Shown piece after piece: positions 39,435 through 63,405 of a stretch of 64,000 nt of DNA. How positions within the stretch are numbered: the first letter of the stretch is position 1; every line of letters starts with the position of its first letter. Both the position numbers and the translations under genes were made by a program. This DNA is from Onthophagus taurus (lineage: Eukaryota; Arthropoda; Insecta; Coleoptera; Scarabaeidae): contig NC_091973.1 of assembly GCF_036711975.1 (NCBI RefSeq), positions 2,108,001 through 2,172,000 of the forward strand, written 5' to 3'. The notes under the pieces were generated by a model. That model was not told the origin of the DNA, did not search any database, and was given only the letters and a program-made list of their open reading frames with translations.

Positions 39435-40445
39435 TTTAGAATGTTTCTAATTCTCGGTCTAGGGTTAGTTCTAGTTTTACACTAATACTAGCGTTAGAAC
39501 TAACACAAGACCTAGAACTAGAATCATTCGGGTTTAGCCGTCTTGAGAGACGTGAGGCTAAACCCGAATGATTCTAGTTCTACGTCTTGTGTTAGCTCTA
39601 GTAGCAGTGATAGGTAGCACTAGTTAGCATATGATATTACTATGTTGTATATTTTTATTGAACTAAAACTAGAACTAACACAAGGCCTAGCACTAGAATC
39701 ATTCGGGTTTAGCCGTCTTGAGAGACGTGAGGCTAAACCCAAATGATTCTAGTTCTAGGTCTTGTGTTAGTTTTAGTTTTACACTAGCACTATCACTAGA
39801 ACTAACACAAGACCTAGAACTAGAATCAATCGGGTTTAGCCGTCTTGAGAGACGTGCGGCTAAACCCGAATGATTTTAGTCCTAGGTCTTGTGCTAGTTC
39901 TAGTGGCAGTGGTAGGTAGCACTAGTTAGCATATGATATTACTAAGTTGTATATTTTTATTGAACTAAAACTAGAACTAACACAAGACCTAGCACTAGAA
40001 TCATTCGGGTTTAGCCGTCTTGAGAGACGTGAGGCTAAACCCGAATGATTCTAGTTCTAGATCTAGTGTTAGTTCTAGTTTTACACTAACACTATCACTA
40101 GAACTAACAAAAGACCTAGAACTAGAATCATTCGAGTTTAGCCGTCTTGAGAGACGTGCGGCTAAACCCGAATGATTCTAGTTCTAGGTCTAGTGTTAGT
40201 TCTAGTTTTACACTACCACTATCACTAGAACTAACACAAGACCTAGAACTAGAATCATTCGGGTTTAGCAGTCTTGAGAGACGTGCGGCTAAACCCGAAT
40301 GATTCTAGTTCTAGGTCTAGTGTTAGTTCTAGTTTTATACTAGCACTATCACTACAATTAACACAAAACCTAAAATTAGAATCATTCGGATTTAGCCGTC
40401 TTAAGAGATGTATGGCTAAACCAGAATGTTTCTAGTTCTAATTTC
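39435..40445. repeat. Palindromic satellite, block 1 (about 7 hairpin units)
   Basis: Each unit is an almost perfect palindrome of about 100 bp: ACCTAGAACTAGAATCATTC, GGGTTTAGCC, a central loop segment GTCTTGAGAGACGTGC, then the arms in reverse complement. Units are joined by TTTTACACTAGCACTATCAC or by a spacer of about 65 bp with GCATATGATATTACTA. All seven units here have the loop segment in one orientation. The last is the most decayed. Confidence 0.95.
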
Positions 40446-43400
40446 TAGTTTTTTCGTTTTATAAATTCCGTAACCATTCAATCTATTGATGTACTGCGGA
40501 TGATTATTACTAACGGTTCCGTTTGATGTGTTAATTACAGGTGGTGTGCAATTTCCTTGAAGCAATCCCGTTCTGACCCCTTCGGCCTTATTAACAAGCC
40601 AAGGGCTTTACAATACAGCACCCCACGTACTATATAACCCATATACCCACTGACATACATGCAATAGAAGTGCATTCATGAAGGAGTTGCCATAGCTACG
40701 CATAAAAAACGGCATGTACTCAACGTACCCTACGCGTTTGGTACATTCCTGCACAAGACTATATTCGAATCGATAAAAAAGACCCTCATTAAGAGGAGGA
40801 AGTAATGAGAATGATGGGAGTCGTTTTATTATATTGTATACACCTGCGAGGAGGAAATGACGAAAAGTCTTATTGTTCTTGTGTTTTTAAATAAATAAAA
40901 AAAAAATAATGGCGGATATAAACTCGCAACCCCTGGAGAATCAACAATGGTTAAAGCGTTTTTCTAGGACCTTATTAAAAAGCAATCGAAAAGATATTAT
41001 CGCTTCCTAAATAATAGATTAGCAATTTAATACCATCGCTATCTTCCGGAGGAGGAAAAAAGAGTACTAGAAAACGATGTGCAGCAGGAAATGTGTGACA
41101 GAACCGATTTAATGACCAGGCTGTAATAAAATTCCACTTATCTCTAGGCGACCCCTTATTTACTGTAATTTTTCGTGCGCCGGTTGAAATTGGATTCCGA
41201 CGCCGCGACGTCGTCGTCGATTTTCCTGCAGATTTATTTTTCCTTTATCCGTATATTCCAGGATACGTAAACCTGGTGTGGTGCTCTCGAATCTACCAAT
41301 TAGTACTAATAGCGCGGGGAACGCCTGTTTATATAATGAATATATAAACATCAATTAACATCATCCCCCATCAATAGGCACGACGATAGAGTGCGCTCCA
41401 ATGTTTGTTCTGGATGTGGCTGGAGGCCGTCCCGACGCCGACGTCATTTCCGGTTCCCCGATAAGGTCTAATAGTTATTGGGCCATCTCTACGTTCAATT
41501 TAAACCGAATGCGACTATAGGACAAGATTTAGTGAAAAATTGATCCAGTTGTTAATACAATAATGTCAAAATAATAATAAAACTTGAAAGGGACCAGCTT
41601 TCAAGTTTACAAAAGATGAAAAATCGTCGCCGAGTTAATCTCGCACGGTCACAATATTGAAATAAAGTAATAAATGAATCAAGACCGGATCGTTGTGTAT
41701 TCATACCCTGAGTTTATGAAGACGTTCGATGACAGGGTAACCCGTCATTTATCAAGGATCTAGGTGAGAACAGTACTGAACGGGGTTATTGCCCTCATGT
41801 TCCCCTTCACATTATATACTACACATATCCTGTTATATCCCTATGTGCCCTAATAGAGTTAAGTCAATAATTGTCCGACGTCCATTGTCTTTTCTCATTT
41901 CTTTTTTTGCCCTTGTACAATCCGATAGAAAAAGAAAAATTCCCTACGCCCTGGAGACGTCCCTCTGATCCTAAACTAGGTCAGTCCTTATACAAAAGAC
42001 AAGAGCCCGCACGAGAGATGCCGTATCGTTCCCTTTAATTACATATTTCACCCGTCGACATTCATACGATATTCCCCCTTTTAAGTTGGGGTCCCCTTTT
42101 ATTCTTCATCTTCATCCCCTTCACCTTCATCCAACAACATGTACTAACTTTAAAATGCATCTAAAATATTCCTTATCTTTGTCAATTCCTTAGCCTCCCC
42201 TTGTCATTCTTGAAAATGAATCAGTTCTTTTAATTGGTTTAGATTTAGCTGTGACAGAATTGGACACGGATCTGTGTTTGCGAGAGCAGGGCGATTAGCA
42301 CGCATTATGCTAAACAGCGTCCTCTAATCAATGGCGTCGCACTAAATCACATTCTCGGTAGCTCGGACGCGTCTAATGGCCCGCTGATCCATGCATCAAT
42401 TTCTCCCTAATTGCCGGTTACCTTTGATGACAAATAACGCGCTCGACGCCCGCAAAAGAGACTCGTAACTATTCCCTATCCAAGACACAAAGAGAATCAT
42501 ATAGTACTTAGATAATTTCTAGATTAAAATTTTTTTTTGAGTATGATATATTGGGGGTGTTGGAAAGTTGGATTCAGGGAATCCGTGGAAAGGCAAAAAA
42601 AAGGCAGGTTTTCATTTCAATTACGGGCGTAAAGAGCGGGTGCTTGGGCTATTGTTAAAAATACAATTAAACGCTGGACCGAAGCCCCCCGGATGCACGT
42701 CCAATTAAACGGGAGGCGATAGCGCCGGTCCCGGTATTAAATTCCACCTGACAAATGCAATTTCGCCGAAATACCTAATGGTACAAACAGATTTGTCCGT
42801 GTGACAGTTGGGCGCTAATGCGGACGGACTTAACGACAAGTAAAGCTTGATGTATTGTAGCACATTTAGAAACAAATTGACCGGCCGTCGGCATCGCCCG
42901 CGTTGCATTAGGTGTACCTCGGTTATTATGCCCGGTTATAATAATTTACTGCCCCAGGATAGCCGCGTATCTATATCGTCGGCCAAACTTAATTATTCCA
43001 TTCCATGTTGTCCGTTTTCATCGATCTATTAGTTATCAAAACCCAACACACATGCCAACAAACCAACCCATCCCATCCCCAAACACATTATTTACTTTAT
43101 ATTACACCAATTTACTTAATTCGATTACATATAAAGATACAAACTAAATTCTTAGTTCTACTTGACATGTGCATAAGACTCATCTTCCTCAAAAATCGTT
43201 CCTGTGGTAGTTCAAGAATGTCTGGGATGACATTAAGGGATGCCAGATACTTTATAGGGTGCTGCCCTCAACAATGTGGACAGTTTCAGACTCAACGTTA
43301 GGAGATATTTAGAATATGGTGTTAGGGACGATCTTGTGGTGTGCTCAGAATGAGGTTGAGAGTTGTTGGATGACGTTGAAGGGTGCCAAGGACAAAATAT

Positions 43401-43640
43401 TGAGGTATGTTTGAATCGATGTAGCTGAAAAACATGAATGACATGGGAAGATGATGTTAATAGATATGCTGGAAAGAGGAGACGTGGATGATATTAAGAG
43501 ATCACTTTGATGTTGTTGAATCAGGCCTAGAAAGACGCTGAGGAATGTCAGAAAGGACTAGAGGAAGACATAGAAAAGACAAAATTTAATGATTTTTAGG
43601 ACCAAGTTGCAAGTTCACTATTATGACATTGAGGGAACAT
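40446..43640. other. Unique non-coding DNA between the two palindrome blocks
   Basis: No supported gene in 3.2 kb. CG-rich patches near 41190-41240 (CGCCGCGACGTCGTCGTCG) and 42660-42990. It is flanked on both sides by the same palindromic satellite. Open frames of 61-98 codons lack splice logic or similarity. Confidence 0.4.
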
Positions 43641-45365
43641 TGAGTTCTAGTTTTACACTATCACTAGAACTAACACAAGACCTAGAACTAGAATCATTCG
43701 GGTTTAGCCGCACGTCTCTCAAGACGGCTAAACCCGAATGATTCTAGTTCTAGGTCTTGTATTAGTTCTAGTGGCAGTAGTAGGTAGCGCTAGTTAGTAT
43801 AAGATATTACTATGTTGTATATTTTTATTGAAATAAAACTAGAACTAACACAAGACCTAGAACTAGAATCATTCGGGTTTAGCCGCACGTCTCTCAAGAC
43901 GGCTAAACCCGAATGATTCTAGTTTTAGTTCTTGTGTTAGTTCTAGTGGCAGTGGTAGGTAGCGCTAGTTAGCATAAGATATTATTATGTTGTATATTTT
44001 TATTGAAATAAAAATGTAAATAAAAAATGCGTCTGAAGACGCACGGCTAAACCCGATAGTTTCTAATTCTAGGTCTAGTGTTAGTTCTAGTTTTACACTT
44101 GCATCATCACTAGAACTAACACAAGACCTAGAACTAGAATCATTCGGGTTTAGCCGTCTTGAAAGACGTGCGGCTAAATCCGAATGTTTCTTGTTCTTGG
44201 TCTAGTGTTAGTTCTAGTTTTACACTATCACTAGAACTAACACAAAACCTAGAACTAGAATCATTCGGGTTTAGCATTCTAGTTCTAGGTCTTGTATTAG
44301 TTCTAATTTTACACTAGCACTATCACTAGAACTAACACAAGACCTTGAACTAGAATCATTCGGGTTTAGCCGTCTTAAAAGACGTGCGGCTAAATCCGAA
44401 TGATTCTAGTTCTAGGTCTTGTGTTAGTTCTAGTTTTACACTAGCACGATCACTAGAACTAACACAAGACCTTGAACTAGAATCATTCGGGTTTAGCCGT
44501 CTTAAAAGACGTGCGGCTAAATCTGAATGATTCTTGTTCTAGGTCTTGTGTTAGTTCTAGTTTTACACTAGCACGATCACTAGAACTAACACAAGACCTA
44601 GAACTAGAATCATTCGGATTTAGCCGCACGTCTCTCAAGACGGCTAAATCCGAATGATTCTAGTTCTAGGTCTTGTGTTAGTTCTAGTTTTGCACTATCA
44701 CTAGAACTAACACAAGACCTAGAACTAAAATCATCCGGGTTTAGCCGTCTTATGAGACGTACGGCTAAACCCGAATGATTCTAGTTCTAGGTTTTGTGTT
44801 AGTTCTAGTGATAGTGTAAAACTAGAACTAACACTAGACCTAAAACTAGAATCATTCGGGTTTAGCCGCACGTCTCTCAAGACGGCTAAACCCGAATGAT
44901 TCTAGTTCTAGGTCTTGTATTAGTTCTAGTGGCAGTGGTAGGTAGCGCTAGTTAGCATAAGATATTACTATGTTGTATATTTTTATTGAAATAAAACTAG
45001 AACTAACACTAGACCTAGAACTAGAAAGTATCGGGTTTAGCCGTGCGTCTTCAGACGCACGGCTAAACTCGATAGTTTCTAATTCTAGGTCTAGTGTTAG
45101 TTCTAGTTTTACACTTGCATCATCACTAGAACTAACACAAGACCTAGAACTAGAATCATTCTGGTTTAGCCGTCTTGAGAGACGTGCGGCTAAACCCGAA
45201 TGATTCTAGTTTTAGGTCTTGTGTTAGTTCTAGTGATAGTGTAAAACTAGAACTAACACTAGACCAAGAACTAGAAACATTCGGATTTAGCCGCACGTCT
45301 CTCAAGACGGCTAAACCCGAATGATTCTAGTTCTAGGTTTTGTTCTTAGTTGTAGTGATAGTAAT
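43641..45365. repeat. Palindromic satellite, block 2 (about 12 units, mixed loop orientation)
   Basis: Same arms as block 1, but the central segment occurs both as GTCTTGAGAGACGTGC (44155, 44370, 44495, 45165) and flipped as GCACGTCTCTCAAGAC (43690, 43881, 44625, 44864, 45291). One unit near 45038 has a fully symmetric centre, GCCGTGCGTCTTCAGACGCA. One unit near 44275 has lost half of its hairpin. A 77-codon ORF here is a by-product. Confidence 0.95.
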
Positions 45366-47200
45366 AGTGCAATACTTTCATATATTCCGATTTATATGAA
45401 ATTTCCGATATATATTCCTAAATTTCTATCGATAAAATCGTTGGTACGTATTACGCATGCTCAAATAAATAATAAATATAAATAAAAATGGCGGGATATT
45501 TAAATAATTTTTTTTTATTACAAATTGATATGTAATAATTTTTAAATATTACATGTACTGCGCATGTTTGTTGTGTATATACATAGTATTATTGATTTTT
45601 TGTTAAAAGGGGGAGCGGGAAATGTTTGAATTGTTTAGAGTGGAACGACGAGAGAGAAGTGTGGGATATTTGAATGACAGTGTAATCCTTTAGTGACGCG
45701 GGCGATCTTTGTTAATAAATGACCGTCCGGTCGTCGAATGCAAATAGATGTAAATGCGTATATAGGAAATAAAGAAACGCGCCCCCCTCGGCCCGTGTCA
45801 GTACAACCCTTCGGCCCCTATTTGAAAAGATCGGAGATTTCGTCGACACATTGTTAAAGCTCGACTTTACGGTTGATTGTCAATTTGCGTATCACCGTAA
45901 AGTCGGGTAACGGCATTTTTACTGGCCGCATAAATATATAATTCGTCGATCCAAGGGCACATTGGTATTTCGTAATTTAACGTTAGCTACTTAAATTTAG
46001 TTCTTTCGTGGATCAGAGGGTTGCTACAATGTTGCTCGATGCTCGAAGAGAGCAGCTGTAGTTTACGACAATCGTTTCCTCGATAGAGCTTATGGGAGTT
46101 AATAACGTTTTAGAACGTTGTTGTCCCGTTTATTTCGCTTCCTGTAATTAGCCTTTCGGCTTTTTCGCTTTTTCCTCGTTCGAGCCAAAGTTATAATTTT
46201 CAACAATAACCCTACTTTTCCTCACTAAAAAGGAATAATAAAAAAACTAATAATAAACCACACACGATTGACCATTTCTATACATTGTTGATTGTAATAT
46301 TATTCGAAACAACATTGTTCGAGGTTGTAAATCACCAGTTTTTTAAGCATTTCGAAGGGTGACGTTCGTTTGTTTTATTGCCTTTTCGCTTGTCGTTCGC
46401 ATATCATTACACGGTAATACCAGTCGTTTCCCAGAAAAAAAAACTGTGGTTACTACCCAAGTACTAAATCTTTGATTTACATCCGCACTTAAATTGTAAC
46501 ATTGTTCGCCTGATTGACGTTATACGGCGACGGCAGCGTTAAAATTTCAAAAATTCCCAATAATTACTTAAATTGTATCGCCTCGTCTCGCCAACAAAGG
46601 AATCCCATTACACCAGTTACGACGTTTATGGCAAATTAAACCGTTCCAATTTTGACCCTCTGATAAGAATATTCAAGCGGACACTGCTCTTTTTACCATT
46701 AGACACGGTTTTGGGACTCGTAAACTTACTTTACGATCCCCAACAGCGATTGCAAAATTAACTACTCTGCTTCAATTATCTTTACTTGTTCTAACAATGT
46801 TTTAAATCTGAGATTTTTTTTCAATAAATTTCCTAAAGAAGAAAACAAAGTACTTGGGAAAAGGAGTACGAACACGTACCGGATATAAAAAATTTTGTTT
46901 ATTTCAACTTGAGCAACCTATACCTTTTACTATAGCATATTGTGTTACTGTTACGCCTTTTATAGCTTTGACTTTATGAACGCGACCGGTCTTTTGCGAG
47001 TGTTGCCATAACCTTTTTTTTAATAACAAACGAATGGAATTTTGTATTATGAAACCGACTTTCCGAAAAATTAAGAAAATTATTAATAAAACAATTAAAT
47101 AAACTTATTTTAAGAGATCATAAATTAGAATAATAAAAATAAAGAGTTAAAAAAGTTGTTCCATACTTAATATTATATTATCTACCATATAAAAGCTAGT
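45366..47200. other. Unique non-coding DNA
   Basis: No gene supported. CG-rich near 45690-45910, AT-rich afterwards. 45850-45910 has TAAAGCTCGACTTTACGG and CACCGTAAAGTCGGG, an inverted pair around CCGTAAAGTCG. Confidence 0.35.
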
Positions 47201-47299: not shown

Positions 47300-49320
47300 C
47301 AGGATAGGCTTGGTTTTACGCTCCATTGACTTCGAAGACGTCGGCCGCCCCAAGTATCATGAAAAATACTTAGGTTGGTCGACGTCTTCGAAGTCAGCTG
47401 AGATTATTTCTGCCACAAACTTCAAGCAGGGTAGACTTGGTTTCGTGCTCCAAATCCTGAGTGATGCCATTAACAACTTTATGGCAGAAATAATCTCGAC
47501 CCAACCTAAGTATTGTTCCAAATACTTGAGGCGGCCGACGTCTTCGAAGTCGGCCGAGATCATTTCTACCATTAACTCCAAGCAGGGTACACTTGGTTTC
47601 ACGTTTTGACTCTTGAGTAATACCATTAACAACTTTATGGCAGAAATAATCTCGGCCGACTTCGAAGATGTCGGCCGCCCCAAGTATTATGAAAAATACT
47701 TAGGTTGGGTCGTGATAATTTCTGCCATAAACTTCAGGCAGGGTAGATTTGGGTTCGCGCTCCAAATCCCGAATGATACCATTAACAACTTTATGGCAGA
47801 AATAATCTCGACCCAACCTAAGTATTGTTCCAAATACTTGGGGCGGCCGACGTCTTCGAAGTCGGCCGAGATTATTTCTACCATTAACTCCAAGCAGGTT
47901 ACACTTGGTTTCACGTTTTGACTCTCGAGTAATACCATTAACAACTTTATGGCGGAAATAATCTCGGCCGACTTCGAAGACGTCGGCCGCACCAAGTATC
48001 ATGAAAAATACTTAGGTTGGGTCGAGATTATTTCTCTCATAAACTTCAAGCAGGGTAGATTTGGGTTGACGCTCCAAATCCGGAGTGATGCCATTAAAAC
48101 TTTATGGCAGAAATAATCTCGACCCAACCTAAGTACTGTTCCAAATACTTGGGGCGGCCGACGTCTTCGAAGTCGGCCGAGATTATTTCTACCATTAACT
48201 CCAAGCAGGGTACAGTTGGTTTCACGTTTTGACTCTCGAGTAATACCATTAACAACTTTATGGCGGAAATAATCTCGGCCGACTTCGAAGACGTCGGCCG
48301 CACCAAGTATCATGAAAAATACTTAGGTTGGGTCGAGATTATTTCTGTCATAAACTTCAAGCAGGGTAGATTTGGGTTCGCGCTCCAAATCCCGAGTGAT
48401 GCCATTAACAACTTTATGGCAGAAATAATCTCGACCCAACCTAAGTACTGTTCCAAATACTTGGGGCGGCCGACGTCTTCGAAGTCGGCCGAGATTATTT
48501 CTACCATTAACTCCAAGCAGGGTACACTTGGTTTCACGTTTTGACTCTCGAGTAATACCATTAAAAACTTTATGGCGGAAATAATCTCGGCCGACTTCGA
48601 AGACGTCGGCCGCCCCAAGTATCATGAAAAATACTTAGGTTGGGTCGAGATTATTTCTGTCATAAACTTCAAGCAAGGTAGATTTGGGTTCACACTCCAA
48701 ATCCCGAGTGATGCCATTAACAACTTTATGGCAGAAATAATCTCGACCTAAGTAACCTAAGTATTGTTCCAAATACTTGAGGCGGCCGACGTCTTCGAAG
48801 TCGGCCGAGATTATTTCTACCATTAACTCCAAGCAGGGTACACTTGGTTTCACGTTTTGACTCTCGAGTAATACCATTAACAACTTTATGGCGGAAATAA
48901 TCTCGGCCGACTTCGAAGACGTCGGCCGCCCCAAGTATCATGAAAAATACTTAGGTTGGGTCGTGATTATTTCTGCCATAAACTTCAGGCAGGGATACTA
49001 TTAACAACTTTATGGCAGAAATAATCTCGACCCAACCTAAGTACTGTTCCAAATACTTGAGGCGGCCGACGTCTTCGAAGTCGGCCGAGATTATTTCTAC
49101 CATTAACTCCAAGCAGGGTACATTTGGTTTCACGTTTTGATTCTCGAGTAATACCATTAACAACTTTATGGTAGAAATAATCTCGGCCGACTTCGAAGAC
49201 GTCGGCCGCCCCAAGTATTATGAAAAATACTTAGGTTGGGTCGTGATTATTTCTGCCATAAACTTCAGGCAGGGATACTATTAATAAATGGCAGAAATAA
49301 TCTCGGCTGTATAAAAATTT
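47300..49320. repeat. Satellite family B, unit about 311 bp with internal inverted repeats
   Basis: About six to seven units. Each contains GGCCGAC-TTCGAAGA-CGTCGGCC-type inverted text in both orientations, ATACTTAGGTTGGGTCGAG and its complement, AACTTTATGGCAGAAATAAT, and AACTCCAAGCAGGGTACAC. The landmark CTCGGCCGACTTCGAAG recurs near 47650, 47965, 48276, 48588, 48900 and 49185. ORFs of about 100 codons occur on both strands because few stops fall in the unit; the period is not a multiple of three and they do not form a longer protein. Confidence 0.93.
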
Positions 49321-51078: not shown

Positions 51079-51666
51079 ATGGTAAATTTCTTAATAACAT
51101 TTCATAAAATGCAAATTCTATTAATCTTTTTTATTTTTATTAATAGACGCTTCATTTATCCCACGAAATCAGCGTTAACTCACATTGTTCTTACTACCAA
51201 ATGTCGTTAAAAACAATCATTCAAGAGCAAGTTTTAGAACACCCTTGCGCCCCCATTTTAATCAACATCTTCGAGCATCAATATAAAATCGGCGATACAT
51301 GTAAATTAATTTTAATTACTTTAATCCACTTAATTGTTATAATTTTTGAATCTAGATCACGCGGATTATTTGATCTCGACTTACGGAATGACGAAATCGA
51401 AGTACTACAGCACCTTCGGTGGTTCCAGGAAATGCGAAGCTAAAAGATGCCAAAATGTAATTAGGATCATTATAGAGCTTGAAGGGGAAACTTTGGATCA
51501 CCCAGTTTTCAAAACATACCGCCTACAACTCGAGGTAAAAATCAACCAAATTGGGTATCCGAATAACCACATGGTTAATGTTTTGTTTGACCCGTTATTA
51601 TCGAATGAATTTGAGCCACCTACCCATACTCCAATGCACAACAATTGTGGAGAGGCAAATGAATAA
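51079..51666 (+). CDS. Unrecognised three-exon family, member 1
   Basis: Exons 51079-51081 (only the ATG), 51147-51300 and 51356-51666 join in phase into 155 residues. The intron after ATG is phase 0; the next is phase 1 and falls just before HADYLISTYGMTKSK. That motif closely matches TDYMVSTYGKTKSG of member 6 (59156-59947), so the two are paralogues although they lie about 8 kb apart on opposite strands. The last exon has alternating hydrophobic stretches (VIRIIIELEGE, YRLQLEVKINQIG) typical of a small beta-sandwich. There is no signal peptide and no membrane segment. Function unknown. Confidence 0.78.
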
Positions 51667-51859
51667 CAAAAAACAATTTCTTAATAAAGTTGTACTTATT
51701 TTTATATTTTATTTTAATATCAGTTTTTAAGTGTTTAATAAACACAAATTTAAACTAATCTTACTTCTTTTTATTTAAACAACATTAACATAATAAATCC
51801 CAAATAAATTGAAGAATATTTTTAAACCTTGAAATGACCTTGATATTTAAAAATTACTT

Positions 51860-53885
51860 TGTAAATGATAAATTTTCATATTTTTCTCGATATCTATGAA
51901 TTTGAAAGAAAAAGTGGAAGAGAGCAAATTTGCTACAACTTTTATTCTAAAAGTTTTTTTCTAATATGCTCTGATTGCCAAGCGTTACCATTAACAGCAA
52001 AAAATAACGAATTTTCACATTTTCGTATTTTTCTCGATATCTATGAATCTGAGAGCAAAAGTGCAAGAGAGCAATTTTGTTAAGAATAAAATTTGCTACA
52101 ACTTTTGTCGTAAAAGTTTTTTTGTAATATGCTCCGATTCCCAAATGTTACCATTAACAGCAAAAAACAACGAATTCATCAAATTATCATATTTGTATAT
52201 TTTCCTCGATATTTAAGCATCTAAGAGCAAAAGTAAAAGAGACCAATTATGTTAAGAATAAAATTTGCTACATTTTTTGTTCTAAAAGTTTTTTTGTAAC
52301 ATGCTCCGATTCCCAAATATTACCATTAACAGCAAAAAGCAACGAATTCATGAAATTATCATATTTTTATATTTTTCTCGATATTTAAGCATCTGAGAGC
52401 AAAAGTGCAAGAGACCAATTATGTAGAGAATAAAATTAGCTACAACTTTTGTTCTAAAAGTTTTTTTGTAATATGTTCCGATTCCCAAATGTTACCATTA
52501 ACAGCAAAAAACAACGAATTCATCAAATTTTTATATTTTTCTCGTTATTTAAGCATCTGAGAGCAAAAGTGCAAGAGACCAATTTTGTTAGGAATAAAAT
52601 TTGCTACAACTTTTGTGCTAAAAGTTTTTTTGTAATGTGCTCCGATTCCCAAATGTTACCATTAACAGCTAAAAACAAGGAATTCATCAAATTATCATAT
52701 TTTTATATTTGTCTCGATATTTAAGCATCTGAGAGCAAAAGTGCAAGAGACCAATTTTGTTAAGAATAAAATTTGCTACAACTTTTGTTCTAAAAGTTTT
52801 TTTGTAATATGCTCCGATTCCCAAATGTTACCATTAACAGCAAAAAACAACGAATTCTTCAAATTATCATATTTTTGCATTTTTCTCGATATTTAAGCAT
52901 CTGAGAGCAAAAGTGCAAGAAACCAATTATGTAGAGAATAAAATTTGCTACAATTTTTGTTCTAAAAGTTTTTTTGTAATATGCTCCGATTCCCAAATGT
53001 TACCATTAACAGCAAAAAACAACGAATTCATAAAATTTTTATATTTTTCTCGTTATTTAAGCATCTGAGAGCAAAAGTGAAAGAGAGCAATTTTGTTAAG
53101 AATAAAATTTGCTACAACTTTTGTTCGAAAAGTTTTTTTGTAATATGCTCCGATTCCCAAATGTTACCATTAACAGCAAAAAACAACGAATTCATCAAAT
53201 TATCATATTTTTATATTTTTCTCGATATTTAAGCATCTGAGAGCAAAAGTGCAAGAGACCAATTTTGTTAGGAATAAAATTTGCTACAACTTTTGTGCTA
53301 AAAGTTTTTTTGTAATGTGCTCCGATTCCCAAATGTTACCATTAACAGCAAAAAACAAGGAATTCATCAAATTATCATATTTTTATATTTTTCTCGATAT
53401 TTAAGCATCTGAGAGCAAAAGTGCAAGAGACCAATTATGTAGAGAATAAAATTTGCTACAACTTTTGTTCTAAAAGTTTTTTTGTAATATGCTCTGATTC
53501 CCAAATGTTACCATTAACAGCAAAAAACAACGAATTCATCAAATTTTTATATTTTTCTCGTTATTTAAGCATCTGAGAGCAAAAGTAAAAGAGAGCAATT
53601 TTGTTAAGAATAAAATTTGCTACAACTTTTATTCGGAAAGTTTTTTTGTAATATGCTCCGATTCCCAAATGTTACCATTAACAGCAAAAAACAACGAATT
53701 CATCAAATTATCATATTTTTATATTTTTCTCGATATTTAAGCATCTGAGAGCAAAAGTACAAGAGACCAATTTTGTTAAGAATAAAATTTGCTACAACTT
53801 TTGTTCTAAAAGTTTTTTTGTAATATGCTCCGATTGCGGAGTGGTACCATTAACAGCTTGCAAAAAACAACGAGTTCATCTAATT
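51860..53885 (+). repeat. Satellite family A array, about 12 copies
   Basis: Unit of about 163-172 bp: GCATCTGAGAGCAAAAGTGC, AATAAAATTTGCTACAACTT, AAAAGTTTTTTTGTAATATG, CTCCGATTCCCAAATGTTAC, AACAACGAATTCATCAAATT. Short and long unit forms alternate, from a deletion around ATTATCATATTT. The right edge changes to GATTGCGGAGTGGTACCATT, which is also the right edge of the second array. Confidence 0.95.
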
Positions 53886-54174
53886 TTTTATCTTAACTAC
53901 ATCTTGAGGAAAAAAATTTTAATTCAACATATTTTATATAAAATTTATTAATCTATATCGCGATAACAATAACATGATACGTGAATGAATAAGAAGAATC
54001 AAATTTCATTTTACTCCGAATTCAGTTTAGAATTCTTGAGATTGCGATTAGTGCTAAATGTATGTTATCAAATTTTTCCATAAGTAAGATCAAGTTTTTA
54101 TTGATAAGTATATTATAACATGGGTATGTTGGTTTATATATATAAAAGTATTAAAAATAAAATTAATAAAATTG

Positions 54175-54693
54175 TTAACATAATAAATATTTAGAAGTCC
54201 AAATACTATTAAAAGGTTCGTTAATAACAATACGAACGTCTACTTTATATTTTTCGTAGTAATACTCATCGATAGTATTTTCCAAGATGATGTTAGCATA
54301 AATCTTTTTCTTATGGCAGACGCTAAATGATCGTTGTGATAGTTCCGTTACGCCTTGGAACGATTTAAGTGTATTTCCATCATTTTCCCATATATAAATT
54401 TGATAATCCACGAACCCTAATTGTTTAATTTTAATTTAAAAAAATTTATTACTTAAAAAAAACTTACAATTATACGTATTTGTATCTCGATATTCCATAT
54501 CATAATAATGTTGATAAATAGAAATAATAATCGAAGTTTTATTTAAAACTTTAAACGTCTCTTCCAATAAAAAACCATCATAATTGCGGTGATTTGCTTG
54601 CAACCAAATTGTTTCTTTGTACAGTTTTCCCGCCTTAAACTTTTTAATAAATTATTTAATTAATAAATTTTTTTAAAATACCTGATAAGCCAT
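54175..54693 (-). CDS. Unrecognised three-exon family, member 2
   Basis: Exons 54682-54693 (MAYQ), 54468-54639 and 54175-54416 join in phase into 141 residues. The phase-1 intron comes just before FVDYQIYIWENDGN, the family position. The ending (VRIVINEPFNSIWTSKYLLC) parallels member 7 (LSIMVKEPIAHGWTSEFKFY), and the middle block KIYANIILENTID parallels RRVSANILLTDRIED there. It is therefore closest to member 7. No signal peptide, no membrane segment, function unknown. Confidence 0.78.
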
Positions 54694-55315
54694 TTTATTT
54701 GTTAATTAACGCTTTCGTAGGACCGTCTTAACCGAACTATTAACACAGACTGACTCAAAGACTTGTTGATATTACATTGTAGCGACAAATAAGGATTAAG
54801 GTTCGAAACGTAACATTTTCGCTGACCAAAGAATTTTTTTATTAATTAAAATAAACTCGTGCTTTATAAACTTTAATCATCACCCCTTAAGAAAAAAATA
54901 AATAAATAAATAAAGGAATAATTTTTTATGAATATAATAATTAATGCATATTTGTAACGCTTACTTTAGCTCTTTTTTAATAGATGGAAACATGCACTAA
55001 AATAATAAAATTTAAGTAATTAAATTTATATAATATATAAAATAAATTAATATATTAATTTATATATATATTAATATAATTATTTAATATTTTTATTTAT
55101 TTTTAAATAAAACATTTTTTTATTATTTTAATAAATCTTTATTAAGCATCATTTCTTGCTTTAAATTTATATAATATATAAAATAAATTAATATATTAAT
55201 TTATATATATATTAATATAATTATTTAATATTTTTATTTATTTTTAAATAAAACATTTTTTTATTATTTTAATAAATCTTTATTAAGCATCATTTCTTGC
55301 TTATAAAAGTTGCAA
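54694..55315. other. AT-rich spacer with a 141-bp tandem duplication
   Basis: The segment 55021-55161 is repeated almost exactly at 55162-55302 (starting TAAATTTATATAATATATAA and ending in ATCATTTCTTGCTT). The first part is the promoter side of member 2. Confidence 0.8.
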
Positions 55316-55356
55316 AAGTAAAAAAATAAAAATTATTCTTATAAAAATAATCGTTT

Positions 55357-55579
55357 TTAATATTCCTCCGGTGGACTCGGAAGATCCTGCGTGAACTGCG
55401 CAGCGAGGAGAGTATTTTCCGGCATATTCTCCACGTTTATCTCGAACATAAACATGAAGCAAAAGAAGCATTGAGGATTTTCATTAAACCTCCCGGTAAG
55501 CTGGACGTTAATCTTCACCTCACCTCTCCCCGGAATCACGTTGATTAATTTATTGTCGATGAAATTGTGATAGTGGCCG
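55357..55579 (-). pseudogene. Truncated copy of the last exon of member 3
   Basis: Nearly identical to 57075-57300 at the DNA level. The translation from NGHYHNFIDNKLINVIPGRG to TQDLPSPPEEY differs by S for N near the end. It is cut where satellite A begins (GGCCGTCTTCAAAGTGCAAG), losing the splice acceptor and exon 1. It has no start of its own, so it is a gene fragment, probably dead. High identity points to a recent duplication. Confidence 0.85.
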
Positions 55580-56905
55580 TCTTCAAAGTGCAAGGGAGCA
55601 ATTTTGTTAAGAATAAAATTTGCTACAACTTTTGTTCTAAAAGTTTTTTTGTAATATGCTCCGATTCCCAAATGTTACCATTAACAGCAAAAAACAACGA
55701 ATTCATCAAATTATCATATTTTTATATTTTTCTCGATATTTAAGCATCTGAGAGCAAAAGTGCAAGAGACCAATTTTGTTAAGAATAAAATTTGCTACAA
55801 CTTTTGTTCTAAAAGTTTTTTTGTAATATGCTCCGATTCCCAAATGTTACCATTAACAGCAAAAAACAACGAATTTATCAAATTATCATATTTTTATATT
55901 TTTCTCGATATTTAAGCATCTCAGAGCAAAAGTGCAAGAGACCAATTTTGTTAGGAATAAAATTTGCTACAACTTTTGTTCTAAAAGTTTTTTTGTAATA
56001 TGCTTCGATTCCCAAATGTTACTATTAACAGCAAAAAACAACGAATTCATCAAATTATCATATTTTTATATTTTTCTCGATATTTAAGCATCTGAGAGCA
56101 AAAGTGCAAGAGACCAATTTTGTTAAGAATAAAATTTGCTACAACTTTTGTTCTAAAAGTTTTTTTGTAATATGCTCCGATTCCCAAATGTTACCATTAA
56201 CAGCAAAAAACAACGAATTCATCAAATTTTTATATTTTTCTCGATATTTAAGCATCTGAGAGCAAAAGTGCAAGAGACCAATTTTGTTAAGAATAAAATT
56301 TGCTACAACTTTTGTTCTAAAAGTTTTTTTGTAATATGCTCCGATTCCCAAATGTTACCATTAACAGCAAAAAACAACGAATTCATCAAATTATCATATT
56401 TTTATATTTTTCTCGATACTGAAGCATCTGAGAGCAAAAGTGCAAGAGACCAATTATGTAGAGAATAAAATTTGCTACAACTTTTGTTCTAAAACTTTTT
56501 TTGTAATATGCTCCGATTCCCAAATGTTACCATTAACAGCAAAAAAACAACGAATTCATCAAATTTTTATATTTTTCTCGTTATTTAAGTATCTGAGAGC
56601 AAAAGTGCAAGACACCAATTTTGTTAAGAATAAAATTTGCTACAACTTTTGTTCTAAAAGTTTTTTTGTAATATGCTCCGATTCCCAAATGTTACCATTA
56701 ACAGCAAAAAACAACGAATTCATCAAATTATCATATTTTTCTCGATATTTAAGCATCTGAGAGCAAAAGTGAAAGAGACCAATTATGTTAAGAATAAAAT
56801 TTGCTACAACTTTTGTTCTAAAAGTTTTTGTGTAATATGCTCCGATTGCGGAGTGGTACCATTAACAGCTTGCAAAAAACAACGAGTTCATCTAATTTTT
56901 TATCT
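55580..56905 (+). repeat. Satellite family A array, second block, about 8 copies
   Basis: Same units as 51860-53885. The left edge breaks into the truncated exon copy. The right edge (GATTGCGGAGTGGTACCATT, then AACAACGAGTTCATCTAATT) and the following 150 bp match 53830-54000, so the block and its right flank are a segmental copy of the first array. Confidence 0.95.
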
Positions 56906-57074
56906 TAACTACATCTTGAGGAAAAAAATCGTAACTCAACATATTTTATAAAATTTATTAATCTATATCGTGATAACAATAACATGATACGTGAATAAAT
57001 AAGAAGAATCATTTCTTGCTTATAAAAATTGCAAAAGTAAAAAAATAAAAATTATTCTTATAAAAATAATCATT

Positions 57075-57583
57075 TTAATATTCCTCCGGTGGATTCGGAA
57101 GATCCTGCGTGAACTGCGCAGCGAGGAGAGTATTTTCCGGCATATTCTCCACGTTTATCTCGAACATAAACATGAAGCAAAAGAAGCATTGAGGATTTTC
57201 ATTAAACCTCCCGGTAAGCTGGACGTTAATCTTCACCTCACCTCTCCCCGGAATCACGTTGATTAATTTATTGTCGATGAAATTGTGATAGTGGCCGTTT
57301 TCGGTCAATCCGTATATCGTAACGAGATATTGGATAGAAGCTGAATGTTAAAAAAAAAAAATTTTAATAATTTTAAAGTTGTTAGAAAAAAATGCTTACG
57401 AAGCGTGCCATCAAGAAATTGAATTTCTGATATTTTTATGATTATGGGTGTTCCCTGGGATGGAGATAATTGTCGGTGCAACAAACAATTTTCGGAAAAA
57501 CCGGTATAAAGTGAGGAAAGTTCCACTGAGCTCGCAAAACACATTGTTGGTGTTGGCGGCATCGGCAACGAACGATTAAGCAT
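57075..57583 (-). CDS. Unrecognised family, member 3 (two exons)
   Basis: Exons 57400-57583 (184 nt) and 57075-57340 join in phase into 149 residues. The phase-1 intron precedes SIQYLVTIYGLTENG. It is the close paralogue of member 4: both have a 184-nt first exon with CLLHRQLSP / YLLHRQLAP and P-I-I-(I/V)-K, and both last exons share YHNFIDNKLIN/YHTFIDNKIIN and TAQFTQDLPN-type ends. The last exon alternates strands (VKINVQLTGRF, FMFMFEINVENMP). It lacks the short first exon of members 1, 2, 6 and 8. Its last exon is duplicated at 55357-55579. Function unknown. Confidence 0.8.
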
Positions 57584-57834
57584 TTTTAAGAATGTATTAA
57601 GAATTAGAGCGACTTCTCTTCGAAGAGAACAATCATGTAACTGAACAGCTTCTTACTCTTTGTTTACTACTGATATAAAATGGAGTAGGGATATCGTTTT
57701 TCGGTTGGCAAGATTGTCAACTGCCTTCTAGCGTTCAATAGAAGTAACATATCTTAAGGGTAGGAATTAAATTAAATAAAAATTTTTTTCTTCTTAATAC
57801 GTTTATTTGTTATAAACAAAGAGTATTAATTAAA

Positions 57835-58335
57835 TCATAAAAGAGGCAAGTTCGGAAGATCTTGAGTAAACTGTGCCGTAACGCGAACATTTCCTGGCAT
57901 ATTTGCTATTTTCACTTCAAGTATCATCATAAAACTGAAATAACATTCAGGAACATCACTCAATTTTCCGGAAAGGTGGATGTGAATCTTCACGAATTCG
58001 CTTCCGTTGATTGTATTTATTATTTTATTGTCGATAAAGGTGTGGTATAAACCATCCTTGAATCCATAAATTGTAACGAGATATTCAATTCGTGCTAAAT
58101 ATCACAAAAAAATTAAAATTTAATTAATTAAACCTTAATCAAAAAACTTACGAGGGGAAGCATCAAGCACTTGAACTTCCATTAATTTGACAATTATAGG
58201 AACACCTTCACGTGGCGCCAATTGACGATGGAGCAAATATCTAATCGACGAACCAACATAATAGGAATTAAGCTCCAACGTGGTTGTAAAGCATATTATT
58301 GGTTTTGGTGGTGGAAGATAGCTACGACGATACAT
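57835..58335 (-). CDS. Unrecognised family, member 4 (two exons)
   Basis: Exons 58152-58335 (184 nt) and 57835-58094 join in phase into 147 residues. An ATG 54 nt upstream is in frame, but the DNA there matches the 5' non-coding DNA of member 3 (GAGAACAATCGTGTAACTGA), so the inner ATG, MYRRSYLPPPKPI, was chosen; it lines up with MLNRSLPMPPTPT of member 3. After the phase-1 intron come RIEYLVTIYGFKDG and FVKIHIHLSGKLSD, FMMILEVKIANMPG. The divergence from member 3 is substantial despite identical exon lengths. Function unknown. Confidence 0.8.
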
Positions 58336-59155
58336 TTTTAAATCGCAACGTCTTCGATGAGAACAATCGTGTAACTGATTTTGGAACATGTGTAGGTTCT
58401 TTCCATTCTTAGTTACTACTAAAAGGGAATAAGTCCCGCCATCTAACGTTCATCAGATATACTATATCGTTACAGTAGGAATTTACTTTATTCGGATTAA
58501 TGCGTAAATTAATTTATTTATATAATTGTGTAATAATAATATGTATAATAGTAATAATATGAATCTATTTTACTATCAAAAACATTATTTTTAAAGAGTT
58601 ATTTAAAAATGTTGTGACCTTCATATGACCGCGAATCTTCTTATAAGTATGAAAATAAAAAATACTCATAAAGTATTAATTTATTTTATAGAGAGACAAA
58701 ATCAGGGAGGTTTTTAGTTGATTCAATACAAATTCATATTGACACACACCAATAAGCTATTTCTGCAATTAACTGGTGATGTGGCACGAATGATTACCAA
58801 AAAGGATCTTTATCAACAAAATGCGTAGTGATGGGCTAAGAAGGAGGAAATAAAAACGATGTGGGGAGGTTTTGATTTGATCCAATACATTTATTTCATA
58901 TTCTAAAATGTTTGAGTTTTCTGGAAAACATCTCAATTAATATTTTTCACTTCTTTCGTAGTTATCAAGTAATCTAAGAACGTTTTTAATCATTTAGTGT
59001 CATTTTGACACACACCAATAACCTTTTTCTGTTTTGTTAGAATTGGCTGATTATTAGGAATTTGAGGTTATTTCAAATAATGCGATGATTAATATTTTAA
59101 TGAGATTTTTATTAATTGCAAATACACAAATATTATTTATTTATTAAATGTTTTG
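58336..59155. other. Spacer with a diverged direct duplication
   Basis: 58336-58480 is the promoter side of member 4. Further right, TTGACACACACCAATAA recurs near 58739 and 59009, and the phrase GGAGGTTTTTAGTTGATTCA near 58708 has a relative GGAGGTTTTGATTTGATCCA near 58865, so about 160 bp was duplicated and has diverged. No gene. Confidence 0.5.
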
Positions 59156-59947
59156 CTATTCAGCTGAAAAATTCTCATCTTCAGATTCGTTCTCCAACGT
59201 TTGGAATCTATTCTGTATAAATAGAGGTTGATGGGCAACATTTAGTATTGGTCGTCCGTCAGATATTTCGTCTTCCGAATCTTCTTCTACGTCCTCTTCT
59301 CCTTCCGGGTTTTCCTCGCTTTTCTCCGCCTCTTCGCTTCCAGGCTCTTCTATTTCGCTATTTGGGTGTTCGATTGTTTGTACATGGACGTAATTGAGCT
59401 CATCAAGTTCTAATCCGGGTTCAAAGAAATAACGAACAGTGTTAGTGTCATCAAACCCATGGAAAGTAATTTTTACGTAAACGGTGATGTGATAATCCCC
59501 GTATAGGTAGTGGTTGACGTTGCCCTTGAGTCTAATGGTCAAGAATTGCTCATTTTTCGTGTTGAATCCGGCCATTTGCCTCGTTCCATGTTCATCCTCG
59601 GTGAACGCATGCATTTTACCGGATTTCGTTTTTCCATAAGTCGATACCATGTAATCGGTGTAATCTAAATAAAATTTTTTATGAAATTAAACGTCATTTC
59701 CGACGTAAAAATAACTTACGTTTCTTCCCGCGATTGTATTGCCTCTCTTGTATGGCGATAATAACCGGGCTAAAAGGGAACGTGATTTCCTTCCGGAAAA
59801 GCGTGCATACCGATTGGAAGTTGTAATGAGTAATTAAATTCTTGTGGTAATTTATCAGATAAGAAGGCTACAAATTGAAATTAAATAAATCGAATCGAAT
59901 TATATTTTTATTACCTTGAAAGGCGACGAGGCAAGTGCAGAAGCCAT
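59156..59947 (-). CDS. Unrecognised family, member 6, with acidic tail
   Basis: Exons 59915-59947 (MASALASSPFK), 59720-59867 and 59156-59664 join in phase into 229 residues. Phase 0 then phase 1 introns, as in member 1. The family motif is TDYMVSTYGKTKSG, followed by FLTIRLKGNVNHYLYGDYHI and VYVKITFHGFDD. Unlike the others it has a C-terminal extension of about 70 residues that is strongly acidic (EEAEKSEENPEGEEDVEEDS), like tails that bind histones or basic proteins; that role is inference. Function unknown. Confidence 0.78.
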
Positions 59948-60181
59948 GTTGAAGGTTCGGATGTGATTCTTCAACTGGCACCTAATGCATTCCGTCTCAT
60001 TTTATAACAACATTTTAGGAACTCGTACAATCGCATAAGAAGATTCCTACTTTTTTATTAAATATAGTAATTGAAAGCGCCGCTAGATGACCAAGCGTTT
60101 AAACGGGCCAATCAGAATTGGGATTGATTTAAATACGAAATTATTATTTAAACGTTTATTTTAAGGTTATACATTTTTTAT

Positions 60182-60776
60182 TTAATAAAATTTAAATTCA
60201 GAAGTCCACCCATGCGCAATGGGCTCTTTCACCATTATTGAAAGGCGGAGTTCGTAATCGCTGAAATCGACCACATCTTCAATACGATCAGTTAGCAAGA
60301 TGTTGGCTGAAACCCTGCGATGATTTGGACCGGTGAAAGTGTGATAATTCATGTTCTTTTTTCCAGTGAATCGTTTGAGGATTCCATTAACTTCTTCGAA
60401 AATTGCAATTTTGTATTCAACGTATTCTAAGTAATGATTTGAATTAATTTAATTAATTTTATTTATGAATTAACTTACTGAATGGTGCAAGGATCGTTTT
60501 TGATGTAGAGGCCAACTCAGTTTTCTTGCAAATTTTTTGGCTCAACGTAAAAATGATTTTTGTGTACGTGGTGAGTGAGATGCATTCTTCGAGTAAAAGT
60601 CCTTCGTCCGAAGATCCAAACTTGACGTAATAAGACTGGTCGCGACGAAGAATCTTTTTCTGTTCCATTTCCGGTTCACACTCACATTTTAGTTTTATAC
60701 TACCCAATGATAAGCCAACTCGAATCATGTGGGATTGAGAACTACAACTTGCCAATGTTAACGATTGTTCTGCCAT
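60182..60776 (-). CDS. Unrecognised family, member 7
   Basis: Exons 60479-60776 and 60182-60426 join in phase into 180 residues. The phase-1 intron precedes YVEYKIAIFEEVNG. The first exon is longer than in other members and merges the usual short first exon with the second; it has a CECEP segment and LLLEECISLTTYTKIIFTLS, which parallels FLLEETFKVLNKTSIIISIY of member 2. The end, VKEPIAHGWTSEFKFY, also matches member 2. Function unknown. Confidence 0.76.
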
Positions 60777-60979
60777 ATTAAAAATGTAACAATAAAATGT
60801 TCGCAGGTCATATATTTATGCTACTTATCTTTAAGACATGCGCATTGCTTTGTTTAGACTTCATGATAATCTTTGAAAAAAATAAAATATTAAACAGGAT
60901 GTTTTTTTGCTATGAGCTTTTATTAAGAGTTAAAACACTTGATTAATAAAGTTTAACAATGATGTAATAAATCATTTTT

Positions 60980-61536
60980 TTATGGAACCACAACAAGTAA
61001 TGAACGGTAAATATGAGGAGAACGTTCCGTAATGATCAACTCAATGTCAACCTCGAAATTGGTATATTGAACATTTTCTTCTTTTAAGACATCCTTCAAC
61101 TTAATCTTCCCGATTAAAAAGCGATTGTAGTTGGTGATGATAGTTTCGAAGTTAAAAAGTTTTGTTCCGTTGTAATTGGTTTCAATATCGTTTACCACTT
61201 CTTTTAACACCATGGTGTAAGTTACAACACCTAAAAAAATCAAAATTAAAAAATTTAAAAAAAAATTAATTATTTTAACTTACTCATTGGAATATTACAC
61301 CAAGGATCAACTTCTTCATCCGGTGGGTAAAAATCGACTTCTTCTTGATAAACCGATACATTCAAAGCGGAATGTTCGGTTAATTTAATTAATTTGTTGG
61401 CGAGAAATTGAGGGCCAGATAGGCGATATTTAGTTTCCAAATAAACATGTTTACGAAGAATTCCATCCTATACATGATGAATTAATTATAAATAATAACA
61501 TAAAAAAATACATACCGGTTGGTAAGCGTTACTCAT
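60980..61536 (-). CDS. Unrecognised family, member 8 (most diverged)
   Basis: Exons 61516-61536 (MSNAYQP), 61284-61467 and 60980-61230 join in phase into 151 residues. Phase 0 then phase 1 introns, with the family position reading VVTYTMVLKEVVND. The second exon (RKHVYLETKYRLSGPQF, ALNVSVYQEEVDFYP) aligns in plan with member 2 (YKETIWLQANHRNYDGFLLE, TSIIISIYQHYYD). The last exon ends FEVDIELIITERSPHIYRSL, the family strand pattern. Membership rests on intron positions and strand layout more than identity. Function unknown. Confidence 0.72.
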
Positions 61537-62040: not shown

Positions 62041-63405
62041 TAAATATCATAATAAATATTTTTTTTTAAATAGAGTAAAATTATTAACGTTATGAATTTT
62101 GAATTGAATTTATCTCAAAAACGAATAATGATTTAGAAGTGCGGTTTTATTAATCTTAAAGCACATATCTTCTTTTATAAACCCCGAATATTTCATCAAG
62201 ATATCTTAAGAATTCGATTTTTAACATTTTTTTTTAAAATAGAGAAAAATTATTAACGTTATGAATTTTTTGAATTAAATTTATCTCAAAAACGAATAAT
62301 GATTTAGAAGTGCGGTTTTGTTCATTTAATAGCACATATATTCTTTTATAAATCCCGAATATTTCATCAAGATATCTTAAGAGTTCGATTTTTAACGTTT
62401 TTTTTTTAAATAGAGAAAAATTATTAACGTTATGAATTTTGAATTAAATTTATCTCAAAAACGAATAATGATTTAGAAGTGCGGTTTTGTTTGTTTAAAA
62501 GCACATATCTTCTTTTATAAATCCCGAATGTTTCAGCAAGATATCTTAAGAATTCGACTTTTAACATTTTTTTTTAAATAGAGAAAAATTATTAACGTTA
62601 TGAATTTTGAATTGAATTTATCTCAAAAACGAATAATGATTTAGAAGTGCGGTTTTATTAATCTTAAAGCACATATCTTCTTTTATAAACCCCGAACATT
62701 TCATCAAGATATCTTAAGAATTCGATTTTTAACGTTTTTTTTTAAATAGAGAAAAATTATTAACGTTATGAATTTTGAATTAAATTTATCTCAAAAACGA
62801 ATAATGATTTAGAAGTGCGGTTTTGTTTGTTTAAAAGCACATATCTTCTTTTATAAATCCCGAATGTTTCAGCAAGATATCTTAAGAATTCGACTTTTAA
62901 CATTTTTTTTTAAAATAGAGAAAAATTATTAACGTTATGAATTTTGAATTGAATTTATCTCAAAAACGAATAATGATTTAGAAGTCATTTTTTGTTCATA
63001 TAAAAGCACATATTTTCTTTTATAAACCTCGAACATTTCATCAAGATATCTTAAGAATTCGATTTTTAACATTTTTTTTTAAATAGAGAAAAATTATTAA
63101 CGTAATGAATTTTGAATTAAATTTATCTCAAAAACGAATAATGATTTAGATGTGCGATTTTGTTTATTTAAAAGCACAAATCTTCTTTTATAAACCCCGA
63201 ATGTTTCATCAAGATATCTTAAAAACTCGATTTTTAAAATTTTTTTTTAAATAGAGAAAAATTATTAACGTTTTGAATTGAATTTATCTCAAAAACGAAT
63301 AAAGATTTAGACGTGAGGTTTTATTCATCTAAAAGTACATATCTTCCTCTATAAATCGCAAATATTTTATTCACATATCTCAAGAATTCAATTTTTTACG
63401 ATTTA
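62041..63405 (+). repeat. Satellite family D array, unit about 168 bp, 8 copies
   Basis: Landmarks AATTATTAACGTTATGAATT, ATCTCAAAAACGAATAATG, AGAAGTGCGGTTTTGTT and CATCAAGATATCTTAAGAAT recur about every 168-170 bp. The third and fifth units are nearly identical, as are the first and fourth, suggesting a higher-order duplication. The last unit is the most decayed. Confidence 0.93.

Follow-up and report, generated by a model that had tools for sequence, protein, structure and literature searches.

We examined a cluster of small genes at positions 51079-61536 of a 64,000-nucleotide stretch of the Onthophagus taurus genome (the window; contig C8, NC_091973.1, positions 2108001-2172000, within a genome of 290.8 Mb and 33 contigs). 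The cluster holds seven intact predicted genes (G1-G7) and one 3' fragment (G3'; Table 1), and by profile comparison the seven are homologous, G7 marginally so. Gene models were rebuilt by enumerating GT..AG introns, which gave one coherent model per gene; the choice among alternatives was based on splice-site quality and agreement across members, and frames, splice sites and phases were rechecked on the joined coding sequences. In all seven joined sequences a phase-1 intron of 51-59 nt lies directly 5' of the exon that carries a Y-x-x-Y motif, and four of the seven (G1, G2, G5 and G7) have a phase-0 intron of 42-65 nt after 1, 4, 11 and 7 codons, respectively. Two models keep an alternative: G2 has two candidate acceptors 6 nt apart (141 or 139 residues) and G4 two candidate starts (147 or 165 residues). 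The first coding exon of G1 is the ATG alone, a choice accepted on the ground that the sequence ahead of the next ATG can be aligned to the first strand in G3 and G4. The rebuilt models confirm what an earlier note on this DNA had claimed of the locus, namely seven intact genes and one fragment, proteins of 141-229 residues (139 in the alternative G2 model), a conserved phase-1 intron before the last exon, and a phase-0 intron after 1-11 codons in four members.

Table 1. Predicted genes of the cluster and the 3' fragment, with positions in the window.
Feature	Positions	Strand	Predicted product and structure
G1	51079..51666	+	155 aa; exons 51079-51081, 51147-51300, 51356-51666; sole + strand member
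G2	54175..54693	-	141 aa (or 139); exons 54693-54682, 54639-54468 (or from 54633), 54416-54175
G3' fragment	55357..55584	-	duplicated 3' part of G3 last exon, fused to 172-bp satellite
G3	57075..57583	-	149 aa; exons 57583-57400, 57340-57075
G4	57835..58335	-	147 aa; exons 58335-58152, 58094-57835; upstream ATG at 58389 gives 165 aa
G5	59156..59947	-	229 aa, acidic C-terminal tail; exons 59947-59915, 59867-59720, 59664-59156
G6	60182..60776	-	180 aa; exons 60776-60479, 60426-60182
G7	60980..61536	-	151 aa; exons 61536-61516, 61467-61284, 61230-60980; most diverged member

The evidence for a single family comes first from leave-one-out tests, in which a profile built from six members was run against 2117 frames of at least 25 codons in the window plus 30 kb of flanking sequence. 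The left-out last exon outranked every non-family frame in all seven tests (E 2e-7, 6e-4, 2e-16, 3e-15, 4e-4, 5e-13 and 0.042 for G1 to G7), the top background frame of each test having an E-value between 0.018 and 0.89. Six members are thus significant and G7 is marginal; as the weak member, G7 also leans on the common intron phases and on an AYQ start that it has with G2. One background frame recurred (in locus L013, best E 0.018), and no family exon was seen when its surroundings were read. The exon before the last was recovered well for G3 and G4 (E 1.6e-7 and 8e-5) and weakly for G1 and G2 (E 0.03 and 0.01). A tree of the members has one deep split, {G2,G6,G7} versus {G1,G3,G4,G5}, with support 100/99; the branches of G6 and G7 are long and the order of these two is unsure. 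Aligned group against group with hhalign, the members fall in register over 84 columns (E 0.004). Across all seven, the invariant columns are M1, Y57 and L94.

Eighteen pairs have an alignment of at least 43 codons; of these, 16 have an identity of 18-29%, G4-G6 has 12% (43 codons) and G3-G4 has 52%, so that low pairwise identity with exon phases kept, as the earlier note described it, stands. Its description of the family as fast-diverging and rapidly evolving is unsupported as stated. The proportion of synonymous differences (pS) is saturated (0.75 or more) in 13 of 21 pairs, and it exceeds the nonsynonymous proportion (pN) in all 18 longer pairs; the three pairs set aside because their alignments span no more than 27 codons (G1-G7, G2-G4 and G4-G7) are unreliable, with pS above pN in one and below it in two. 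The closest pair, G3-G4, has pN 0.30 and pS 0.71, corresponding to nonsynonymous and synonymous divergences (dN and dS) of 0.38 and 2.27, and most of its differences fall at third codon positions (47, 39 and 85 at the first, second and third). This pair appears to be under purifying selection. In the comparison of dN and dS between members, a check suggested in the earlier note, G3-G4 looks constrained. Because synonymous sites are mostly saturated, pS exceeds pN in the longer pairs and G3-G4 has a dN so far below its dS, the low identities need no rapid evolution and plain age could suffice.

Recent change is also seen at the locus. Over 285 columns, the duplicate that includes G3' (55300-55584, compared with 57019-57302) differs from its source by 4 mismatches and a single gap of 1 base. 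Adjoining the fragment, at 55020-55307, is a 141-bp A+T-rich unit in tandem duplicate with 99% identity. Arrays of the 172-bp satellite lie within the cluster at 51926-53885 and 55585-56897, and at least 197 genomic matches to the monomer were counted, some of them on other contigs (40 of 1902 candidates were scored). Satellite DNA within beetle euchromatin is the subject of published papers.

Searches of sequence collections placed no member in a described family. Six members have no Pfam match at E up to 10, and the match of G3 to Bac_A_amyl_C (E 0.42) was taken as chance; NCBIfam gave no match at E up to 1. Three PHROGs matched one member each (E 0.057-0.16; PHROGs has no cut-off), and MuF_C matched the family consensus at E 0.006 with 17.1 bits against a cut-off of 27.6; these too were taken as chance. 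No member therefore lies above a family's cut-off in Pfam or NCBIfam, the best PHROGs E-value being 0.057, and the outcome that the earlier note had named as refuting its view (a known family for one or two members and unrelated ones for the rest) did not occur. Scans of IMG/VR with two members and of bacterial genomes in GTDB with a single one, sensitive to close relatives only, gave 11, 5 and 146 pattern matches, none of them confirmed. In titles and the opening parts of abstracts we found no description of the family, and the motifs YLVTIYG and DYLISTYG and two satellite stretches occurred in 0 papers of the literature library searched.

In the beetle's own genome, searches with six single members, one profile consensus and one composite gave matches confined to the cluster within the reach of the search; G3 was left out as a query, and the counts are lower bounds that could miss diverged members. 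Seven weak matches lay off the cluster (best E 0.0026). Six of these, on contigs C15, C7, C6 (two), C10 and C3, scored at most 8 bits with the profile and were set down to chance; the one on C3 sits in a 378-aa frame that we take to be receptor-like. The seventh, on C2, has E 1.5 with the composite query. The statement in the earlier note that the proteins have no recognised function and resemble nothing known thus holds within Pfam, NCBIfam, PHROGs, the PDB, IMG/VR and the bacterial genomes, and within these collections and the own genome the family may provisionally be called an orphan.

AlphaFold2 models of two members are built entirely of strands: that of G4 has 9 strands (mean predicted local distance difference test, pLDDT, 78.5; predicted template modelling score, pTM, 0.71) and that of G2 has 11, two of them mostly intron-derived (pLDDT 86.5, pTM 0.76). 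Both used the same 12 rows as input, and in both constructs residues derived from an intron stand between strand three and the Y-x-x-Y strand; confidence in them is low in the G4 model (block means 49 and 50). Since strands were built from intron-derived sequence, AlphaFold2 confidence is no safe guide here. Foldseek returned 545 (G4) and 392 (G2) matches at E up to 10 among 350,542 PDB chains, of which the best 50 of each were inspected, with template modelling (TM) scores of at most 0.31; a search of BFVD with the G4 model gave no match at E 0.001. Hydrophobicity alternates beyond the null in strands F (3.38) and G (2.82), against a 95% null of 2.54 for 12-mers, and nearly so in the 7-residue strand H (2.53). 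This is consistent with a domain that has a buried face and is no proof of a sandwich; the beta structure that the earlier note suggested has support at the level of prediction. The fold would be either new or mismodelled from too few sequences, the latter being more likely. The two models come one from each group of the tree, are of fair to good confidence and lack a PDB counterpart at E 0.001, which would fit an all-beta fold not described before and represented first by this family. We consider that reading improbable, the chance being lowered because AlphaFold2 built strands from intron-derived residues and because both models use the same 12 rows.

Hydropathy gave no sign of a membrane helix (highest 19-residue Kyte-Doolittle mean 0.90-1.16), as the earlier note had said. 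Its claim that signal peptides are absent holds in the sense that no long hydrophobic leader was found by a hydropathy heuristic, used in place of a signal-peptide predictor; over short stretches of 8 residues the mean rises to 2.0 at residue 13 in G4 and to 1.7 at residue 20 in G6.

We favour, at about an even chance, a reading of the cluster as an old, locally amplified and perhaps lineage-restricted family of small, intracellular, non-enzymatic binding proteins with an all-beta domain. In its favour are the recovery of the last exon and the presence of the phase-1 intron in seven of seven members, the 100/99 split, the all-strand models of two members, the alternation in strands F and G, the excess of pS over pN in all 18 longer pairs and the confinement of genome matches to the cluster. 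Each protein would fold as a compact beta domain and would act by binding a partner, or by assembling with itself or with paralogues, rather than by catalysis, since the start methionine, one tyrosine and one leucine are the only residues invariant across the seven. Intracellular binding or assembly seems likeliest because this scarcity of invariant positions goes together with the lack of a membrane helix or long leader by hydropathy and with the predicted all-beta structure. The cluster may simply be a lineage-specific family. More speculatively, the paralogues may be divided by tissue or partner, reproductive or immune tissue being the usual place for such families. If lineage-restricted, the family offers a compact case of a small protein domain arising and being copied. 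Its fold would merit an experimental structure should it prove new, and meanwhile this is a well-defined family with no recognised function.

Several points weigh against this interpretation. All seven gene models are predictions from sequence, and the eukaryotic comparison covered the own genome and the PDB only. The exon before the last stands at background level for G5 (E 0.57) and was not recovered for G6 and G7 among the matches listed (to E ~3), and the membership of G7 comes down to E 0.042 and gene structure. The group-versus-group hhalign probability is 8.4% despite the E-value of 0.004. Pairing codons through the protein alignment depresses pN somewhat, and alignment error could mask a conserved catalytic residue. 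As to structure, strands 57-64 and 67-74 of the G2 model (block pLDDT ~80) are made up largely of residues 60-76, which derive from an intron. In strands A-E the alternation stays within the null, and neither model found a PDB match at E 0.001. Of the checks suggested in the earlier note, structure prediction gave all-strand models of two members and fold comparison gave no match at that threshold.

Possibly, though this is somewhat unlikely, the family instead belongs to a known all-beta family (FN3/Ig-like, nucleoplasmin-like or other) and has diverged beyond the reach of sequence profiles. In a PDB profile search, profile positions 30-78, which include a YxVSIYG stretch, matched Tencon, an FN3 consensus protein, at E 0.034, and the 6 chains listed at E up to 10 were all Tencon or centyrin. 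The match spans ~50 of 145 positions, however, drops to E 0.28 when group A6 is searched by itself, and disappears when group A5 or the family consensus sequence is used; membership in FN3 was rejected on these grounds. The FN3 sandwich has seven strands; the G4 model has 9 and the G2 model 11, of which two are mostly intron-derived. Pfam gave no FN3 match at E up to 10, near and above which the HMMER filters drop most weak matches. Nucleoplasmin was considered for the acidic tail of G5 and also rejected: there is no Pfam match, the tail occurs in one of seven members, and hhalign gave a probability of 0.2% against the own genome's nucleoplasmin, a weak test with a single sequence. Neither FN3 nor nucleoplasmin is named among the best 50 Foldseek rows of either model. 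The nucleoplasmin gene itself is a frame with an acidic tail on contig C2 (locus L051, 1393-1815, minus strand), which showed no relation to the cluster in the tests made; its closest PDB chain is 1nlq (E 5e-21), the fly protein.

A decaying cluster with several pseudogenes would account for G3', a clear fragment, and for the satellite arrays inside the cluster, and gene models predicted from sequence leave room for it; it is nonetheless improbable, as seven open frames with canonical splice sites are kept despite synonymous saturation in 13 of the 21 pairs. Capture of viral or other horizontally acquired genes, amplified after entry, is highly improbable: the isolation at a single locus, the genome searches having found no relatives off the cluster, fits it, whereas the spliceosomal introns common to the members, the lack of relatives in the close-relative scans of IMG/VR (two members) and bacterial genomes (one), and the lack of a BFVD match for the G4 model at E 0.001 speak against it.

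Of eight neighbouring frames tested, four have Pfam matches (Carn_acyltransf, ATP-synt_C, Hormone_recep and protein kinase), so that the neighbours include a carnitine acyltransferase, a V-type ATPase proteolipid-like gene and a nuclear receptor. Elsewhere in the window, several long Asn/Lys/Ile-rich open frames on the minus strand at 19839-26544 may be exons of one gene; the two tested (19839-20258 and 21123-22538) have no Pfam match. At 28096-30421 and 62058-63404 lie two further satellite-like arrays, which repeat every 173 and 168 bp and by eye are unlike the 172-bp satellite. Several tandem arrays at 39440-45366 have units in which ctagaactagaatcattcgggtttagccg occurs together with what by eye is its reverse complement, an arrangement like that of long palindromes, and an array at 47364-49305 has units of 156/312 bp with open frames of ~100 codons on both strands.

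Among known systems, FN3 (Tencon/centyrin) is alike in being all-beta, as predicted for the cluster, and in its Y-x-V-x-I-Y-G stretch, and different in that the cluster proteins run ~65 residues past the match and neither group alone matches at E 0.2 or better. Nucleoplasmin and NPL (PF03066, PF17800) are alike in having a small all-beta domain, predicted here, and in the acidic tail of G5, and differ in that Pfam and hhalign lend no support and six of the seven members are without the tail. From insect orphan tandem families the cluster departs in that fast evolution is not borne out for it. It resembles them in its local clustering, with paralogues together and none found elsewhere in the own genome (searches that give lower bounds), in low identity with kept exon structure, in matching no described family in the collections searched and in encoding small proteins.

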